Shown here in pieces: positions 15,641 to 43,986 of a stretch of 46,450 nt of DNA. This stretch comes from a virus, in the IMG/VR virus record IMGVR_UViG_3300031456_000008, positions 1 to 46,450 of that record, one strand, 5' to 3'. The notes below the pieces were generated by a model. That model did not search any database and had not been told where the DNA came from. It saw nothing but the letters and a program-made list of their open reading frames with translations. The stretch's first letter is position 1, and every line of letters begins with the position of its first letter. A program made the translations under genes and the position numbers.

Positions 15641-16776
15641 ATCACTTCATGCGCGGAGGCGGGTGCCGGAGGACGAGTTGCCGCCGTACGTAACGGCGGA
15701 TACCCATCGTGTTCCCCGGGTCGCCTCCACGCGTGAAGACCCTATGTTGTCCCTCTCTCGCTGGCAAGAGGGTTGTCTAGCGGGCCGCAGCTCGACTAAG
15801 CAGTTGCTCGAATAGTCCCTTCGACTCGCGTCGAGCGTTATAGCGCCAGGTGTACTCGTCCAAGTAGGACTGCAGCCATTTGGTCGAGACCTTCTTGTAG
15901 GCACCGCGCATCCCAGTTTTGAGGTTGCCGAAAAAGCCCTCGATGGTGTTCGTGTAGATGTCGCCTTCGACGTAGCGGCCCGCTGAGTGATTGATGACCT
16001 TGTGATCCAGGTACTCGCGCTTGAGCGGCCGATAGGGACGCCAATCGTCGGTGAAGATGATCGATTCGGGGTTGACGTTGGCCAGCACTTCTCTACTAAG
16101 CGCCGGTCCTCGGCGCGAAGGAATGATGCGCAGCCGAACCCTGCCGCCACGCTCGACCATTCCCAGCACCGTCGTCCTGCTCTGCAAGTGCGCGGTTAGC
16201 TCGGGAGAGCGCATTTTCAGCTTCTTGCGCGGTTTCCCGCCCCATGAAGTCTCATCGACCTCAACGTCTCCTGAGAGCGGTGAGCCATCGTCCTTCATCA
16301 GCTCGTTGCGGATCTTGTTGAACATTCGCCAAGCAGTCTTGTAGGTCACGCCCAGCTCGCGCTCTAGCTGCTTGGCAGAGATCCCACAGCGAGTGCTGGC
16401 CATCAAGAACATCGCGTAGAACCAAAGCTGCAGCGAGGTCGTGGACTTCTCGAAGATCGTCCCTTTCATCGGGTGCAGATGCTTCCCGCAGGAATCACAG
16501 GTGTAGGAGGCTCGCGATTTGGTCCGATGGAACTTCCGCTCTTTCTTGCAAACCGGGCAATGAGCATGGTGCCCATCAGGCGCATGGCGCTCACGCCAGA
16601 GCTTGTCTAGGCACGCAGCATCGTCTGGATACTCCTGCCAGAACTCAACCAAGGACAGATCGGAGTCCGATGACGCAGCTCGTTTCGGGTTATTTCGGTC
16701 GTTTGCAGCCATTCATCCACTATACATACTTTGGAGGGATAAGTGTGACCCGTCGAGAGCTTGAAAGGGTCCTCCG
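15641..16776 (-). mobile_element. IS1595-like insertion element, ends not resolved
   Basis: The transposase and its flanks, between the repressor stop and the next rightward gene. I searched for terminal inverted repeats: GTTGTCCCTC near 15745 and the reverse complement of the 16736-16750 side share TTnTCCCTC, which could be the inner part of imperfect ends. No clear 8-base target duplication was found by eye, so the true limits are uncertain. Confidence 0.45.
15777..16712 (-). CDS. IS1595-family transposase (ISXO2-like)
   Basis: 311 aa, complete, leftward. An N-terminal zinc ribbon (CPVCKKERK, then CDSCGKHLH, residues 52-78) precedes a helical DNA-binding part and a DDE core: DVEVDETSWGG (about 149-159), IIFTDDWRPY, and the end HSAGRYVEG...TIEGFFGNLKTG typical of IS1595. 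The promoter -10 TATAGT (rc of 16719-16724) lies six bases ahead of the ATG, giving a leaderless mRNA. All catalytic positions look intact. Insertion sequences are unusual in phage genomes. Confidence 0.9.
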   Translation of the reverse strand: MAANDRNNPKRAASSDSDLSLVEFWQEYPDDAACLDKLWRERHAPDGHHAHCPVCKKERKFHRTKSRASYTCDSCGKHLHPMKGTIFEKSTTSLQLWFYAMFLMASTRCGISAKQLERELGVTYKTAWRMFNKIRNELMKDDGSPLSGDVEVDETSWGGKPRKKLKMRSPELTAHLQSRTTVLGMVERGGRVRLRIIPSRRGPALSREVLANVNPESIIFTDDWRPYRPLKREYLDHKVINHSAGRYVEGDIYTNTIEGFFGNLKTGMRGAYKKVSTKWLQSYLDEYTWRYNARRESKGLFEQLLSRAAAR

Positions 16777-28357: not shown

Positions 28358-29569
28358 ATGGCCGCCACGGAAAGCTCACTCGAAGCCGCCCTAGACGTAA
28401 TCTGGACGCGGCGTCGGTTCGTGGAGCAGCTTTTTGAAGAAAATCGCTGGCTCGACAAACTCAAAAAGACCGACAAGTACACGCAGGGCAAGGAAGCAAA
28501 GGTTCCGCTTCACGTCACCCGCAACGGCGGATTCACGTCTCTCCCAGCAGGGGGCGGCAATCTGAACGAAGCCGGAAATCAGGGCTACGACGAAGCGAAC
28601 TTCAAACTCACCCACCACCATCAACAGGCGGCCCTGCAGGGCGACATTCTCGATATCTCAGAGGACAAAGCCGGTTCCATCGTCACGGCAGCGGACGAGG
28701 AGATCACGAGAGCCCTGAATGACATGAACCGCCAGTTCACCCGCATGGCCTACATGGACGGCACCGCGCGCATCGCTCAGTGCCGTACCTCGAATACCAA
28801 CAACGTCGATCTCAATACGACCTCCGGGCGTATCGCTATCGAGCGCGGTTGGATCTTTGAGGGCCAGCAGGTAGACGTGGGGACCAAAACCGAAGAGGCA
28901 GTGATCGTCAACGGCGCAACCGTGACCTTTGTCGATGACGAAAAATATGCATTTACCTCCTCCTCGGGCAACGTCACCACGGAGGGAACCACGCATTACG
29001 TCTCCAACAAAAACGCCCGCTCGGGGGAAACCTCGTTCGAGATGAACGGGATTCAGAACGTGATCTCCGAAACGGCGGAACTCGGGGGCCTCTCGCCCTC
29101 TTTGCAGCGCCAGTGGAAGTCAACGGTCAACACGACCACGACCACGCTGACCATCGCTGCTCTGTTGACGGCGCAGCGCAAGATCCGCCAGCGCCGGGGC
29201 AAATCCCCGACGTTCCTCAACACGGGTCTACTGCAACAGCAGAAGTTCTACGAATTGCTGGAGCAGCAAGTCCACTTCAGCTCAGACAAAGGGCTGACGG
29301 CAGGATCAGACGACACGACCACCTGGAACGGCATGGAAATCTTTGCCGACCCAGACTGTCCCGACGAATTGCTGGCCATGGGCCATTGGGAGCACTTCTT
29401 CATGGTGCGCAACAAAGACCCCTACTGGCAGAACGCGATCACGGGCGGAAACAAGCTGGCGTGGATTCAGGGAACCGACTCCTACGGGGGAAAGATCACC
29501 TGGCGAGCCAACCTGGCCGCGGATAGACGGAACGACCTCTATTTATTCAACGCTCTCGCCACCTCGTAA
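28358..29569 (+). CDS. Major capsid protein
   Basis: 403 aa, preceded by AGGAGGT, an ideal ribosome site, as expected for the most abundant protein. A helical start, a Gly-rich loop (SLPAGGGNLNEAG) and later FADPDCPDELLAMGHWEHFF fit a HK97-type coat fold. Followed by a strong terminator. Placed between scaffold and decoration genes. The family assignment comes from position and pattern. Confidence 0.85.
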   Translation: MAATESSLEAALDVIWTRRRFVEQLFEENRWLDKLKKTDKYTQGKEAKVPLHVTRNGGFTSLPAGGGNLNEAGNQGYDEANFKLTHHHQQAALQGDILDISEDKAGSIVTAADEEITRALNDMNRQFTRMAYMDGTARIAQCRTSNTNNVDLNTTSGRIAIERGWIFEGQQVDVGTKTEEAVIVNGATVTFVDDEKYAFTSSSGNVTTEGTTHYVSNKNARSGETSFEMNGIQNVISETAELGGLSPSLQRQWKSTVNTTTTTLTIAALLTAQRKIRQRRGKSPTFLNTGLLQQQKFYELLEQQVHFSSDKGLTAGSDDTTTWNGMEIFADPDCPDELLAMGHWEHFFMVRNKDPYWQNAITGGNKLAWIQGTDSYGGKITWRANLAADRRNDLYLFNALATS

Positions 29570-29573
29570 CCAA

Positions 29574-29603
29574 ACGCCCCGGGGGGTCAATCCCCCGGGG
29601 CGT
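29574..29603 (+). terminator. Strong hairpin terminator after the coat gene
   Basis: ACGCCCCGGGGG (29574-29585) pairs perfectly with the reverse complement at 29592-29603 (12 pairs), followed by CTTCGT. The T-run is short, so it may give partial termination, which would leave the coat message most abundant. Confidence 0.75.
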
Positions 29604-29632
29604 CTTCGTAAGTCCTCCAAGGAAAGGAAGCT

Positions 29633-32660: not shown

Positions 32661-33455
32661 TTGACTGGAACGCTTGAAAACCCGGCAATCGGTGAAAAAA
32701 ACGAAAAAGGCGATCCGAAAATCGTTGAACTCGTTAAACAGTTCAACGCCTTGCTCGACGGCTCCAACAAAATACCGGGAACCAGCCTCGCGGCCGCCGC
32801 CGCCATCGCCGGTACTCAGCTTGCGGCCGCTGCCGAAATCACGAACGCTCAGCTCAAAGGCGAAATCACCAACGCCAAACTGGCCGGTGAAATCGAAGGC
32901 AGCAAAATCAAAGCCGGAACGGTCGAAGACTCGGATCTAGCGAGTCCCAATAACTCGTTCTATCGGACCCTTCTCTTTGGCGCACAGGGAATAGGAAACG
33001 GTCGCGTCGCTGGCACCTATTTCTTAGGCAACCAGGCCACGACCAACCCGCCAGTGAGCGGGGGAACGGTCATAACCACCGAACAGGTAACCCCCTTCCC
33101 AGTCTTCTACTTCGCAAAAGCAGACTTTGAAGTGGGGTCGAAGACCCAGAAACTCCGTCTTCGCGCCCAGGCAAGTGTGAATGCAACGAAACCAACGATC
33201 AAATTTACCTTTGGCCTTTACCCGATCACGGTAGCGGGCGGCGCAAATGTCCTCACGGTGACGATGGGGTCTGTGGTTGCCAGCTCCACGGTCGAAATCA
33301 ACGAACCTGCCGCCTCGACGGTGACGCAGGCCGTAAACTCAGACCTCACCATTCCCTCTGATGGTGCCTATGTTCTCGGGGTTGTAACTAGTGGCACGCT
33401 TACCGCCAGTTCAGCGCTTTACCTTTCCGCCCAGGTGCAGACCCGTAGCGTCTAG
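32661..33455 (+). CDS. Tail fibre-like protein
   Basis: 264 aa, TTG start with AAAGGA before it. Residues 40-90 hold an Ala-rich and KGEI/NAKL-type repetitive helix pattern (EITNAQLKGEITNAKLAGEI), fit for a trimeric stalk. The C-terminal 160 residues are a strand-rich head. A fibre or fibre-adaptor role is likely. The last 56 bases overlap the end of the leftward metalloprotease gene. Confidence 0.68.
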   Translation: MTGTLENPAIGEKNEKGDPKIVELVKQFNALLDGSNKIPGTSLAAAAAIAGTQLAAAAEITNAQLKGEITNAKLAGEIEGSKIKAGTVEDSDLASPNNSFYRTLLFGAQGIGNGRVAGTYFLGNQATTNPPVSGGTVITTEQVTPFPVFYFAKADFEVGSKTQKLRLRAQASVNATKPTIKFTFGLYPITVAGGANVLTVTMGSVVASSTVEINEPAASTVTQAVNSDLTIPSDGAYVLGVVTSGTLTASSALYLSAQVQTRSV

Positions 33456-33951
33456 GTCGTGCGTGCCGATCCTTGAGTCTTGAGTGCATCCGTGCTTCGC
33501 AGCCGGGAATCACGGGTTTAAAGGTCACGCGCCAGAACATCGGGCTGGATTCGCTTGGGTCGTGCCCAAGGCCGAGCATATGGCCGTACTCATGGACCGT
33601 GATGCGGCAGCGTAGTTCGAGTGCTTTGGCGTGAAGGCGTGGTGCCACCACATAGCCTTCTTCGATGGGCTGCAGTTGCTTTAGGTGCTGTTCGATGAGG
33701 GGAAGCGCTAACACTTTGAGCCAGCAACGCCCTGGTTTGAGCGCGGTTCCCTCGGCTTCCTCCTCGCCCGCCCAAAAGAATTCGGCTTCTGAGAATTCTT
33801 CGGTGATGCACTGTGGCGAGTGAAACCAGCCCCAGTATTCGCGAGCAGTTTGCATATCGTCGGCAAGCGTCGGGGCGGTCAGTGCCTTGGCCGTGCCCGC
33901 CGTGCCTAATGCCAAGAGGATCAATGAAAGCCCTAGAATCTTGCGGCACAT
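33400..33951 (-). CDS. Secreted zinc metalloprotease, metzincin-like
   Basis: 183 aa, leftward. A signal peptide (residues 1-23, KILGLSLILLALGTAGTAKA) is followed by a secreted domain. HEYGHMLGLGH at residues 120-130 is the complete HExxHxxGxxH zinc motif, and a Met (138) in SSPMFW fits the Met-turn eight residues after the last His, so it belongs with the metzincins, matrixin- or archaemetzincin-like. Such enzymes cut proteins; a phage gene of this kind could cleave host surface proteins. It lies in a leftward cassette, with GGAGGA before the ATG. All catalytic positions are present. The 183-residue length is small for the family. Confidence 0.85.
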   Translation of the reverse strand: MCRKILGLSLILLALGTAGTAKALTAPTLADDMQTAREYWGWFHSPQCITEEFSEAEFFWAGEEEAEGTALKPGRCWLKVLALPLIEQHLKQLQPIEEGYVVAPRLHAKALELRCRITVHEYGHMLGLGHDPSESSPMFWRVTFKPVIPGCEARMHSRLKDRHARPRRYGSAPGRKGKALNWR

Positions 33952-33973
33952 GGAGTCTAATCCTCCGTGTCAG

Positions 33974-34003
33974 GCCCCGAGGCGCTGAGAACGTCGTCGG
34001 GGC
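33974..34003. other. Hairpin GCCCCGA...TCGGGGC
   Basis: Seven perfect pairs (33974-33980 with 33997-34003). On the plus strand it is followed by TATTTGT, a weak terminator that would stop rightward antisense transcription; on the minus strand it lies in the leader of the metalloprotease message. Confidence 0.5.
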
Positions 34004-34008
34004 TATTT

Positions 34009-34032
34009 GTAATGACATCCTAGCACGTCATT
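34009..34032 (-). promoter_or_regulatory. Leftward extended -10 inside a GTAATGAC dyad
   Basis: AATGAC (34011-34016) and GTCATT (34027-34032) form a dyad. The ten bases between them are, on the minus strand, GTGCTAGGAT, which gives TGC plus TAGGAT, an extended -10. It would drive the metalloprotease with a leader of about 60 bases. The dyad covers the -10, so a protein bound there would block it. Confidence 0.5.
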
Positions 34033-34246
34033 CCCATTCAAGTTCGCCGCTGTCGATTCGGAAGTGAGCAGCCGGTTCCGGGCATTCAACGCCGCCGTAC
34101 CTAGCTGGGACGCTGCGGCATTCCGGGGCGGTGCTTGATGCGTGGTAGGGAAGAATCCCGGCCACGAATAGCCCGACCACCAAGGCGACGATGGCGAGGA
34201 GAATGCAACTTTCGATCACGTCCCTTGCTTCTCGAAATCGCCACAT
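34028..34246 (-). CDS. Small membrane protein of the leftward cassette
   Basis: 72 aa. One membrane helix (about residues 11-32, VIESCILLAIVALVVGLFVAGI), then an outer part with two Cys (PECRSVPARYGGVECPEP) that may form a disulfide. Its stop overlaps the dyad upstream of the metalloprotease. It might act with that protease, for instance as an anchor or immunity factor; this is inference from the position. Confidence 0.6.
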   Translation of the reverse strand: MWRFREARDVIESCILLAIVALVVGLFVAGILPYHASSTAPECRSVPARYGGVECPEPAAHFRIDSGELEWE

Positions 34247-34267
34247 GAGAAAGGAAACCGTATCACC

Positions 34268-34486
34268 TTGGAGCCGCCCACCGCAATCGAGCGTGACTTA
34301 GAGTGGATCAAGAAGACGCTCGAAACGATTGAGCGGGGCCTTGAAAAGATCCCTACGGACACCGAGCGAATCTATGTCACCAAGGCTGAATTCGAGCCGA
34401 TCAAGCGAGTCATCTACGGAATCGTCACGCTGATCCTCTCCGCTGTTGTCATGGCCATCATCGCTCAGGTCTTGGTCTCCAAATGA
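34268..34486 (+). CDS. XhlA-like membrane protein, holin-associated
   Basis: 72 aa, TTG start after AAAGG. A coiled coil (ERDLEWIKKTLETIERGLEKI) is followed by a C-terminal membrane helix (GIVTLILSAVVMAIIAQVLV), the layout of hemolysin XhlA and phage holin partners. It could act at lysis or as a tail membrane anchor. Overlaps the next gene. Confidence 0.6.
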   Translation: MEPPTAIERDLEWIKKTLETIERGLEKIPTDTERIYVTKAEFEPIKRVIYGIVTLILSAVVMAIIAQVLVSK

Positions 34487-34794
34487 GATTGACCAAGGGC
34501 CGCGTTGCGATCATCGTCGTCATCCTGCTTGTCGGAATCGGAGCTGCGATTTTCAGTCGCGCAAAGACCGTCTCAAGCGTCTGCTCCAGCCAAAAGGAGA
34601 TCACGCAGACGATCAACATGCACGACGTGGCACTGAAAGAATTCATCGACGCCAATGTGCGCGCCAGACGCCACACGGGCGACCTCGCACTTCACGAAGG
34701 CAACGTGGGCGAAGCGACGCTCCAGTACTCCATCGCCAACGAATACCGCGAAATCGGCGACCGCTTCACCCCTCTTCCCGACCCTACTCGCTGA
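34483..34794 (+). CDS. Membrane-anchored protein
   Basis: 103 aa. N-terminal membrane helix (VAIIVVILLVGIGAAIF) and a helical outside part. Only one Cys (VSSVCSSQ). Resembles a signal-anchored protein of unknown role in the fibre cluster. Confidence 0.58.
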   Translation: MRLTKGRVAIIVVILLVGIGAAIFSRAKTVSSVCSSQKEITQTINMHDVALKEFIDANVRARRHTGDLALHEGNVGEATLQYSIANEYREIGDRFTPLPDPTR

Positions 34795-34804
34795 AAGGAA
34801 CACC

Positions 34805-36526
34805 TTGCCTCTTTGGCCTCTTCCCGGCGGGACCGTCAAAGAACCCGCCGACGATCAGAACTTCCGTGCCCTTGCTGAAAAGGGTGGCGAAGTCGAGGAA
34901 GACGTAGTTGCGATTGAAAAAGAAGGGCTCCCCGCATCAGGCAAAGCCGGGGGCGTTCTCTCAGGCGAATATCCCAACCCAGGGTTCGCTACCCCGCAAG
35001 CCACCGTGGCCGAACTTAACAGCGAGGCATCTACGCGCTCGGGAGCAGACGAAACCCTGACGACCAATCTCGCCAACGAGAAAAGTGCCAGGGAAACGGG
35101 AGACAACGAACGGGTCAAAGGCCCGGCCTCGGCCACCGAATCGGACATAGTGGTTTACAGCGGCACCACGGGCAAAATCGTCAAAGACGGTGGGAAAACG
35201 GTTGCCCAGGTCCTCGCTCGCGAAAACCATACGGGCACTCAGCTCGCCGCAACCGTCTCAGATTTCGATACGCAGGTCCGCAAATCGACGCTGAACCAGA
35301 TGACGGCCCCCACGGCCGATCTGTCGATCAATACGCACAAACTGACCAACGTCCTTGACCCAACCGAAAATCTAGACGCGGCCAACAAGGAGTACGTGGA
35401 CATTGCGGCATCGGCTGCGGCTGCCGGACTTTCCATCAAGAACCCTGTGGTCTACGCCTCAGCCGCAGCTCTGACCGCTACCGCTGAAGCCGAAAAAACG
35501 CTAGAAGGTAATTGCCCTCTTGAAATCGATGGCAAAAACACTCCGGCGATGAACGCCCGGCTACTGCTCAAGACTCAGGCATCTGAAAAACGCAACGGTA
35601 TTTATGAAGTTACCAAAGAGGAATGTCTGGGCGGGGAAGGGACGCTGGGCGGGGAAGGGACGCTGGGCACTGGATCGAAATGGAAACTGACCAGGACTGC
35701 GGACGCAGATACCGAAGCCGAGGTCAAACAAGGGATGTATGTCCCGGTCACGCAGGGTGCGGTCAACGCTGGCACGGCATGGACGCTTAGCACCCCTGAT
35801 CCCATTGTCATTGGCACTACGGCGCAGGCGTTTAGTCCTTACACGGCAGTTCCAGGTGGTGCGGCTGGCGGGGATCTCACGGGCACCTATCCAAACCCGA
35901 TGCTCAAAGAAGGCGCGGTGGTCAATGCTGACGTGAACTCGGCGGCCGCCATCGCCTATTCCAAGCTGAATCTCGCCGCGAGTATCACGGGAACGGGAGA
36001 CAATGCGGCAGGCAACCGCAACTACGGAATCGTTGAAGCTCTCCCTACCTCGCCCACTCCCGCCAAAGGCGATGTTTGCCGCTTCAAAGTCGCAGCCGGG
36101 GTCTACTGGGATTTGCTCTATACCGAAGAGGCAACCTATCCCTGGGCCAAGATCGGCGGCCCGCCGCTTCGCCAGGACGCAAGCAACCAGGAAACCAAAG
36201 AAAAAACCTTTCAGACCACCGGCTCGCCTTCGATCACCGCGCCATTGGCAATGGAATTCCGCCCGCGATTCGGTGCTGCCGGAATTCAGCTAGGGGAAGC
36301 CGGGCTGGAGGAAGGTGGAGTCGGGCTATTCATCGACGGGGTCTCGGTCGGGGCTGCCGGTGTGGTTGGGACCGATCAGTTCGACATGTCGCCCGCGAAC
36401 CTCAGCACCGGCTCGCAGGTAGTGGCCAAAAGCAAAGCTATCAACACCCGCTACAAGACTCTGAACGGGAAAAAAGTTAGCTTCTTCGCCCTCTTCGTTG
36501 AGGTAGACCCCCTGCGAGTCGGATAG
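34805..36526 (+). CDS. Tail fibre protein
   Basis: 573 aa from the TTG at 34805 that follows AAAGGAACACC; the frame stays open upstream, but without such a site. A coiled-coil stem (ASTRSGADETLTTNLANEK) leads into YPNP-type repeats (GEYPNPGFA, GTYPNPMLK), which are common in phage fibres. It also has LGGEGTLGGEGTLG, encoded by an 18-bp tandem repeat. The end is a strand-rich head (GVGLFIDGVSVGAAGVVG). Host recognition is the likely role. Confidence 0.78.
   Translation: MPLWPLPGGTVKEPADDQNFRALAEKGGEVEEDVVAIEKEGLPASGKAGGVLSGEYPNPGFATPQATVAELNSEASTRSGADETLTTNLANEKSARETGDNERVKGPASATESDIVVYSGTTGKIVKDGGKTVAQVLARENHTGTQLAATVSDFDTQVRKSTLNQMTAPTADLSINTHKLTNVLDPTENLDAANKEYVDIAASAAAAGLSIKNPVVYASAAALTATAEAEKTLEGNCPLEIDGKNTPAMNARLLLKTQASEKRNGIYEVTKEECLGGEGTLGGEGTLGTGSKWKLTRTADADTEAEVKQGMYVPVTQGAVNAGTAWTLSTPDPIVIGTTAQAFSPYTAVPGGAAGGDLTGTYPNPMLKEGAVVNADVNSAAAIAYSKLNLAASITGTGDNAAGNRNYGIVEALPTSPTPAKGDVCRFKVAAGVYWDLLYTEEATYPWAKIGGPPLRQDASNQETKEKTFQTTGSPSITAPLAMEFRPRFGAAGIQLGEAGLEEGGVGLFIDGVSVGAAGVVGTDQFDMSPANLSTGSQVVAKSKAINTRYKTLNGKKVSFFALFVEVDPLRVG
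35627..35662 (+). repeat. 18-bp tandem repeat in the fibre gene, two copies
   Basis: Two exact 18-base units (35627-35644, 35645-35662) encode LGGEGT. The stabilisation protein at 32445-32510 encodes similar VLGGEG/ILGGEG units with more base differences. Confidence 0.8.
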
Positions 36527-42848: not shown

Positions 42849-43128
42849 GGACGGCTTGGGCGAGGTTAAGGCCGAACTGCGCAGCCATGACGCGCGCCTT
42901 ACCGCCAACCACGATTCAATCGGACGCTTGCGCGAACGGACCGCCGCCCATGACACCGCCATCAAAGTGATTATGGGAGAGGTTAAAGAGACTCGCGAGG
43001 ATGTGACCGAGATGAGCGGTAAGCTCTCTGGGACCAGCAAAGCCTTCTACGCCGCCTCCGTGGCAATGGGCGGGATGATGCTCTCCATCTGCGGCCTGAT
43101 TGCCGTCTTGCTCTCCAACAACGCTTAG
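42847..43128 (+). CDS. XhlA-like holin-associated protein
   Basis: 93 aa, GTG start. A coiled coil (DGLGEVKAELRSHDARLTANHDSI, HDTAIKVIMGEVKETRED) and a C-terminal membrane helix (ASVAMGGMMLSICGLIAVLL): the XhlA build. Next to the lysin, so probably part of the lysis set; a second copy of this build lies at 34268. Confidence 0.72.
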   Translation: MDGLGEVKAELRSHDARLTANHDSIGRLRERTAAHDTAIKVIMGEVKETREDVTEMSGKLSGTSKAFYAASVAMGGMMLSICGLIAVLLSNNA

Positions 43129-43135
43129 GAGCCGT

Positions 43136-43759
43136 ATGACTATCGAGCAGTATCGCCGACGTTTAGCTGAAGCGAGGATTAAGGAGAAACGCTTTCACGC
43201 CATCCGCAATGCGTGGCGCGGAATTGTCGTCAAGCGAAGTCTCGCTCTCAAGCACGCAATCCAGCGGCGCAAGAAACGCGCTCGGCCACATGTCGTGGGG
43301 AAGAACAAAGTAGTCGGCGGCCATGCCGAAGAACGCTTGCTATTCGCAATGCGATACGCGAAAAAGGTCTTCCGCCTCGAATACAGCCAGGACGGCGACT
43401 GGGTAAAGGGCTACGCGCTGACCAACGTCCCTACCCCCCCTCCGCAGCTAAGGACCGACTGCTCGTGGTGGTACACGATGCTTCGCTACGCCTGCGGCCT
43501 GCAAGGCCCAAGCCTCAACGGCGGCTACACGGGCACGATCCTCACCGAAGGCAAGACGGTCTCTCGCTACTACGCTGAAAAGCACGCTGGCGTGGCCGTT
43601 GTCTTCGGCACCGGGACCGCCTTTCACGTAGGCATCTCCACCGGGGATGGCCCGAACATCTACCAGCACGGGACCTCCGACATCCACACGGGGACCTTCG
43701 ACCAATTCGGCTCTACGACTGAGGTCCGGTACCGAGCGTTTCCCAACACGCCGCTATAG
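43136..43759 (+). CDS. NlpC/P60- or CHAP-like endolysin
   Basis: 207 aa from the ATG at 43136, which follows GGAG. A basic start (residues 1-60) that may bind cell walls or DNA precedes a cysteine peptidase core: RTDCSWWYTMLRYAC (Cys 109), GVAVVFGTGTAFHVGIS (His 164) and IYQHGTSD. The core is typical of wall peptidases of the NlpC/P60 or CHAP type. Lies between holin-like genes. Probably the main endolysin, though a virion-borne role is possible. Confidence 0.75.
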   Translation: MTIEQYRRRLAEARIKEKRFHAIRNAWRGIVVKRSLALKHAIQRRKKRARPHVVGKNKVVGGHAEERLLFAMRYAKKVFRLEYSQDGDWVKGYALTNVPTPPPQLRTDCSWWYTMLRYACGLQGPSLNGGYTGTILTEGKTVSRYYAEKHAGVAVVFGTGTAFHVGISTGDGPNIYQHGTSDIHTGTFDQFGSTTEVRYRAFPNTPL

Positions 43760-43794
43760 GAACCCATCCATGCCTAAAGAAAAGGATTCACAAA

Positions 43795-43986
43795 ATGAAT
43801 GAGCCTAAGCCCGTTCTACACGAGCCAGTCCTTCTGGCCGCTACCGTCTCCGGCGTTATCATCGCCTTGGCCGCCAAGTTCGACATCGTGCTCGATACCG
43901 GCGTGACCGAAACCATCGTCGCTGCCGTTCTGCCCGTCTTCCTCGCCCTCTTCGCCCGGGCCAACGTAAGGCCGGTAGCTAAATGA
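43795..43986 (+). CDS. Holin-like two-membrane-segment protein
   Basis: 63 aa. Two membrane helices (VLLAATVSGVIIALAAKF and TIVAAVLPVFLALFARANV) linked by a short acidic turn, the build of a class II holin common in actinophages. It follows the lysin. Overlaps the next gene by four bases. Confidence 0.75.
   Translation: MNEPKPVLHEPVLLAATVSGVIIALAAKFDIVLDTGVTETIVAAVLPVFLALFARANVRPVAK

Follow-up and report, generated by a model that had tools for sequence, protein, structure and literature searches.

A predicted exported matrixin-like peptidase encoded antisense within a P22-like late operon of a virus record

Genes and features of the locus

The window is the 46,450-base IMG/VR virus record IMGVR_UViG_3300031456_000008, positions 1 to 46,450. 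Two leftward reading frames, encoding a predicted secreted metzincin-like protease and a probable membrane protein, are flanked by genes running rightward on both sides (Table 1). A preliminary description had placed both frames on the minus strand against the late genes, and the ORF check located them where it had put them. The protease frame overlaps the 3' end of the B gene by 56 nt. The structural block of the window contains a P22-like portal (phrog_156), a major head protein (phrog_14242), and virion proteins, and the cassette is therefore antisense within the late operon. The portal has distant similarity, at 21-24% identity, mainly to Arthrobacter, Microbacterium, and Cellulosimicrobium phages. 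This similarity to phages of actinobacteria suggests an actinobacterial host.

Table 1. Coordinates of the cassette, its regulatory sequences, and the bordering genes
Feature	Position	Strand	Description
Predicted secreted mini-metzincin, 183 aa	33400-33951	-	Signal peptide, helix A with YWG, C48, C76, C115, HEYGHMLGLGHD, SPMF Met-turn, C151
Probable one-TM membrane protein, 72 aa; candidate upstream partner	34028-34246	-	Outer loop CRSVPARYGGVEC
Leader element directly 5' of protease gene	33949-34023	-	-10-like TAGGAT, TACAAA, GC hairpin, Shine-Dalgarno hairpin, ATG
GC hairpin GCCCCGA...TCGGGGC	33974-34003	-	Compensatory changes over 9 copies
GGAG-GATTAGA-CTCC hairpin holding Shine-Dalgarno	33952-33966	-	Inside leader
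Operator-like dyad AATGACGTGCTAGGATGTCATT	34011-34032	-	Surrounds TAGGAT at 34017-34022; single occurrence in window
TACGGT, leaderless-type -10 element	34257-34262	-	16 nt before membrane-protein ATG
B gene, upstream slot border	32661-33455	+	B homologues carry alternative slot contents
D gene, head-decoration/fibre-like, downstream slot border	34806-36526	+	phrog_2647
Small membrane ORF, weakly XhlA/hemolysin-like	34268-34486	+	Between slot and D gene
Small membrane ORF, one TM	34483-34794	+	Between slot and D gene

Aside from the cassette, the window has a probable lysis cassette at 43100-43986, in which an NlpC/P60-like protein of 219 aa (identified by eye) is followed by a 63-aa holin-like ORF with two transmembrane segments. 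A 607-aa protein at 19984-21807 matches phage tail lysozyme (PF18013) and, weakly, NlpC/P60. An IS1595-type transposase (DDE_Tnp_IS1595) lies within the phage record at 15777-16712 on the minus strand, and an open-ended ORF at 1-468 has, by eye, a transglycosylase/Rpf-like stretch, CESGGDY...GLLTATWQQWGG. A strong GC palindrome, CGCCCCGGGGG...CCCCCGGGGCG, closely follows the major head gene at 29562-29622 and is possibly a terminator or a processing hairpin.

The protease family and its candidate partner

The N-terminus of the protease is hydrophobic and resembles a Sec-type signal (MCRKILGLSLILLALGTAGTAKA). The zinc motif H120-E-Y-G-H-M-L-G-L-G-H130 lies within HEYGHMLGLGHD at residues 120-131, and is followed by the Met-turn-like SPMF at residues 136-139. 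Viral contigs were scanned by motif and by profile, and the divergent member L103 was added later from a search of related records; the family so assembled has 13 members counting the window, all on virus contigs. The window protease and its 12 homologues have in common W40, C48, C76, C115, the HExxHxxGxxH region, and C151. HExGHxxGxx(H/D) is kept in all 13 members, the third ligand being Asp in L103 only, and the four cysteines occur in identical order in 13 of 13. The Met-turn is of the SVMYP type in most members and degenerate in L066, L070, and L071; the window protease carries about 20 extra residues before C115 relative to the other members. The close pair L062/L069 has a dN of 0.078 and a dS of 0.652 (dN/dS about 0.12), which indicates purifying selection. 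The homologues with their common residues and this ratio argue that the protease ORF is not a chance reading frame.

We then compared the family with profile collections. The Pfam Matrixin profile (PF00413) matched 11 of 12 members at E<0.01, with a best value of 8.8e-9, and the window protease scored 22.3 bits against Pfam M10, for which the gathering score is 24. The family profile matched matrix metalloproteinases (MMPs) of the PDB at 3e-8, with the alignment covering the active-site stretch. The NCBIfam models for snapalysin (14.4 bits, cut-off 300) and archaemetzincin (14.2 bits, cut-off 145) did not match the window protease, no PHROG matched any of the 12 members scanned, and PADLOC had no match among the window proteins. 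In tblastn searches of 50,697 phage records with P0001, L059, L063, L071, and L101, no full-length match was found; the only matches were short or weak, to Refuge and an Acinetobacter phage 'Matrixin'. The Refuge match was rejected as a relative, being an unrelated protein without HExxH. Most of the loci that a strict metzincin motif picked up on other viral contigs encode different, longer metzincins and were set aside, and so was the sole match in one genome-contig scan for a cellular orthologue, a 747-aa Verrucomicrobial protein judged generic. Thus the rarity in phages claimed by the preliminary description holds in these searches, and the small four-cysteine, putatively exported metzincin family is, by these comparisons, previously uncatalogued in phages.

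The AlphaFold model of the window protease has a pLDDT of 68 and places HExxH inside a helix spanning residues 103-125. Foldseek returned E about 0.5 with this model, and the top rows of a structural comparison (VIA) were archaemetzincin and MMPs with Z of 5.4-6.5. The model of L063, an uninterrupted member, has a pLDDT of 79.7 and comprises helix A, three strands, and the active helix. It aligns with MMP1 at a Z of 8.2 and an rmsd of 2.2 over 85 residues, and MMPs make up 50 of 50 among the matches listed. Hence the predicted folds of the family resemble MMP catalytic domains, the window model itself being only moderately confident. Structure prediction had been proposed as a check on the zinc helix; with HExxH in a long helix and models matching MMP catalytic domains, the reading was not refuted, and the profile matches, cysteine pattern, and predicted fold together bear out a secreted metzincin-like protease.

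The 72-aa ORF is probably a membrane protein and is the least secure part of the cassette. It has one plain transmembrane segment and a presumed outer tail of about 38 residues with two cysteines; neither a lipobox nor a TIMP-like domain was visible on inspection of the sequence. No homologue was found. Its coding score is 0.022 compared with 0.021 on the opposite strand, which is uninformative, and it lacks a Shine-Dalgarno sequence, its -10-like TACGGT lying 16 nt upstream. In L071 (48 aa), L066 (74 aa), and L103 (149 aa) too, a short membrane ORF stands immediately upstream and reads the same way. These and the window ORF are not recognisably homologous, and several family members have no visible partner. 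The membrane partner proposed earlier thus stands in position, but not in homology or in general occurrence, and its partner role is suggestive only. A cysteine loop of the C-x-R-[IL]-S type characterises exported proteins encoded upstream of the peptidase in L077 and L078 and downstream in L084, and alone in the slot in L092 and L096, the L078 version being looser. The CRSVPARYGGVEC loop of the window ORF resembles them, again only suggestively. Small exported C-x-R-[IL]-S...C proteins beside or replacing a peptidase were recorded at L092:6643-7011, L096:6461-6754, L062:8571-8921, and L077:11794-12198.

The antisense slot and the leader element

Relatives were found via the neighbouring virion genes, and their B-to-D intervals were compared. 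The interval is filled by antisense genes in L071, L076, L077, L078, L092, L095, L096, and L101. L071 has the same metzincin at the same place and in the same orientation. Antisense exported proteins in L077, L078, L095/L097/L098, and L101 instead have PYQxW, HE[VIL]GH, and a downstream E-x-x-A-[DE]-x-Y-x-x-C, which is the pattern of a Glu-type (gluzincin-like) third ligand. This Glu-type HExGH slot family lies at L077:11285-11797, L078:11207-11938, L095:6473-7006, and L101:6546-7031, with no Pfam or NCBIfam match for those scanned. The slots of L076, L092, and L096 encode exported proteins without HExxH. The slot is empty in L079/L094 and L093, where B adjoins D. Outside the B-D slot, the metzincin is antisense in L059, L063, L066, L070, L103, and L084, sense in L069, and codirectional with terminase in L005. 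Between L084 (8987-9529) and L069 (7957-8499), the metzincin gene alone is inverted or relocated while the flanks are collinear. Composition does not mark the cassette as foreign, the G+C of the slot (58.4%) being no different from that of the flanks (58.8%).

From this gene order, the B-D site is a moron slot, in which an accessory cassette sits between genes that are adjacent in relatives. The inserted moron of the preliminary description is in keeping with the empty slots of L079 and L093, the other contents in seven relatives, and the cassette's own regulatory sequence. The operator-like dyad, also described earlier, is present (AATGACATCCTAGCACGTCATT) and encloses the minus-strand TAGGAT. 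It occurs once only in the window and is therefore not a repeated operator, and a repressor-operator reading was rejected. A second dyad, at 33974-34003, forms the stem of a conserved leader RNA. The window metzincin has TAGGAT 71 nt upstream of its start, followed by a structured leader that aligns with the leaders of L063 and L103 at a mean column identity of 75%.

A first covariance model was built from these three leaders and a second was trained on the matches of the first; their E-values are rough owing to short calibration. The first model gave exact leader positions before slot genes (L092, L076) and HNH-type genes (L077:635-711, L095:3327-3402) as well as further copies. An exact-pattern scan added a leader before an HNH gene at L121:6576-6599; the HNH and RecT-like labels of downstream genes were assigned by eye. 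In G017 (L116, G017:14064-14141) the leader precedes an integrase via a 13-codon leader ORF, and in G003 (L115, G003:3299-3382) the leader and a 10-codon leader ORF precede an integrase reading frame identified by coordinates. One clear copy is present in the window, and two or more in G001, G017, and G024. Across nine copies of the GC stem, pair 3 is CG, AT, or GC, pair 6 is GC or CG, and pair 7 is AT or GC, with no pair broken; compensatory change is seen at two pairs, the third alternating between AT and GC. In a comparison devised post hoc on data already viewed, the Shine-Dalgarno sequence lay in a hairpin of 4 bp or more directly before the start in 6 of 9 leader copies and 9 of 282 control starts. 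No Rfam family matches the leader. To judge from its sequence, a protease leader that combines the -10-like TAGGAT with two hairpins, one a covarying GC stem and one holding the Shine-Dalgarno, and that has copies before other accessory genes, is new here, and is a possible general leader RNA of such genes.

Other cassettes fit leaderless-type promoters. TAnnnT lies 12-18 nt before the start, mostly without a Shine-Dalgarno sequence, in 10 of 19 cassette first genes. Among 180 long-ORF controls only 6 have it (Fisher 2.7e-8), and its frequency at random positions is 2.3%; this test was likewise designed after the pattern had been seen, with some start codons hand-chosen. Support for a -35 element at cassette starts is weak (p 0.03). 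Since the protease has its own leader and -10-like TAGGAT, an element common to non-late genes, its expression probably does not depend on the late operon.

Possible roles and comparison with known systems

The best explanation of the whole, to which we give a probability of about 0.6, is a separately regulated moron whose exported matrixin-like zinc endopeptidase edits the envelope or surface. The protease would be a small, disulfide-braced enzyme exported via Sec and acting outside the membrane, where its targets would be proteins of the envelope or surface, either on the infected cell or on neighbouring cells. It would be driven by its own promoter and a leader common to integrase and HNH genes of other phages, from a conserved slot, antisense within a P22-like late operon, in which the exported proteins of relatives are often zinc peptidases of a second type. 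Its most likely role would be to weaken or edit the envelope, by analogy with Listeria Mtz-Tim, and the upstream membrane protein may be an anchored substrate or a regulator. We infer zinc binding, catalysis, and export of the protease, as well as its expression timing and target.

Several other roles were weighed. The protease could trim surface receptors in lysogeny or early infection and so exclude the same or other phages. It is predicted to be secreted, is apparently separately regulated, and occupies a variable slot; its leader is common to integrases and HNH genes, not late genes; many relatives have integrases (9 of 17 related records), and sieA of P22 is likewise a leftward gene between late genes. 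But free secretion would make the protease a leaky means of protecting a single cell, and this role seems rather doubtful. A host benefit apart from phage growth, such as peptide scavenging or attack on competitors, would suit secreted enzymes in moron slots of often temperate relatives, but an integrase was searched for in the window and not found, and one genome-contig scan gave only the generic cellular match in place of an orthologue. We consider such lysogenic conversion unlikely. That the product is no protease but a secreted protein, structural or degenerate, whose HExxH arose by chance would agree with the low-confidence window model and the Met-turn lost in some members, but the motif and four cysteines kept in every member, the purifying selection, and the MMP fold match make this very improbable.

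An accessory acting only at the end of infection with endolysin and holin, e.g. by stripping a protein layer outside the wall, looks rather doubtful as well. Two small membrane ORFs adjoin the slot, the metzincin lies beside an amidase-like endolysin in L084 and L069 and near an NlpC-like one in L089, and Listeria mtz-tim lies downstream of holin-lysin in prophages (PMC8235301). Against it, the gene opposes the late operon, the leader is common to non-late genes, and the window already has probable lysis genes of its own. A primary endolysin was rejected as the default because of the NlpC/P60-like gene (43100-43759) adjoining the two-TM holin-like gene (43795-43986) and the PF18013 protein. 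A virion protein is unlikely because of the signal peptide and antisense position.

Beyond the preferred envelope-editing moron, we tentatively entertain a broader system, in which interchangeable mini exported Met- and Glu-zincins in one antisense slot, with exported or membrane partners and a shared mobile leader RNA also controlling integrases and HNH genes, would form a widespread surface-remodelling system of temperate phages. To our knowledge, extracellular proteases encoded by phages are little studied. A slot in which small peptidases are swapped, together with a recognisable leader, provides a handle for finding many more such genes, and for testing if the bacteria that phages infect or inhabit have their surface edited by them.

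Like morons and insertions of the P22 sieA type, the window gene is an extra gene with its own putative promoter, directed against late genes and variable among relatives; it differs in encoding a predicted secreted peptidase, and its G+C is that of the flanks. With matrixins (MEROPS M10 / PF00413) it shares HExxHxxGxxH, the Met-turn, and an MMP-like predicted core, but the window family starts at helix A and has three predicted strands, four conserved cysteines, and no recognised propeptide. A small zincin scaffold is common to snapalysin (M7), archaemetzincin (M54), and the mini-zincins (M94, PMC3890501), L103 having the Asp-type motif. Different from M94, which lacks a Met-turn (PMC3890501), the window family has cysteines and, in most members, a Met-turn. 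The ESAS of cluster K mycobacteriophages combine a SigA-like promoter with an inverted repeat (PMC3203893, PMC11373665). The leader is likened to SAS/ESAS (consensus GGGATAGGAGCCC) by arrangement, i.e. an inverted repeat with a promoter, putative in the leader, and a start-associated Shine-Dalgarno sequence before scattered genes; its sequence is different, and it precedes slot proteins, integrases, HNH, and RecT-like genes.

By analogy, the closest precedent for the window pair is Listeria Mtz-Tim, of phage origin, in which a secreted metzincin cleaves its anchored partner (PMC8235301). Compared by description, both have a metzincin, secreted in Listeria and predicted to be so in the window, with HExxHxxGxxH/D and a Met-turn, encoded by accessory phage genes; the window membrane ORF is a candidate counterpart of the small exported or anchored partner. 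They differ in that Listeria has the order mtz-tim, a TIMP-like lipoprotein, and a CI/Cro-type switch, whereas the window has its membrane ORF upstream and another leader. With Mtz-Tim, cells and also their neighbours become more sensitive to cell-wall agents as well as phage lysins, and virion release rises about 5-fold (PMC8235301); the sole tested precedent found thus alters the ease of bacterial lysis. On the same grounds, editing of the host envelope is a possible role of the window pair, and lysis sensitisation by it would follow from the Listeria analogy only.
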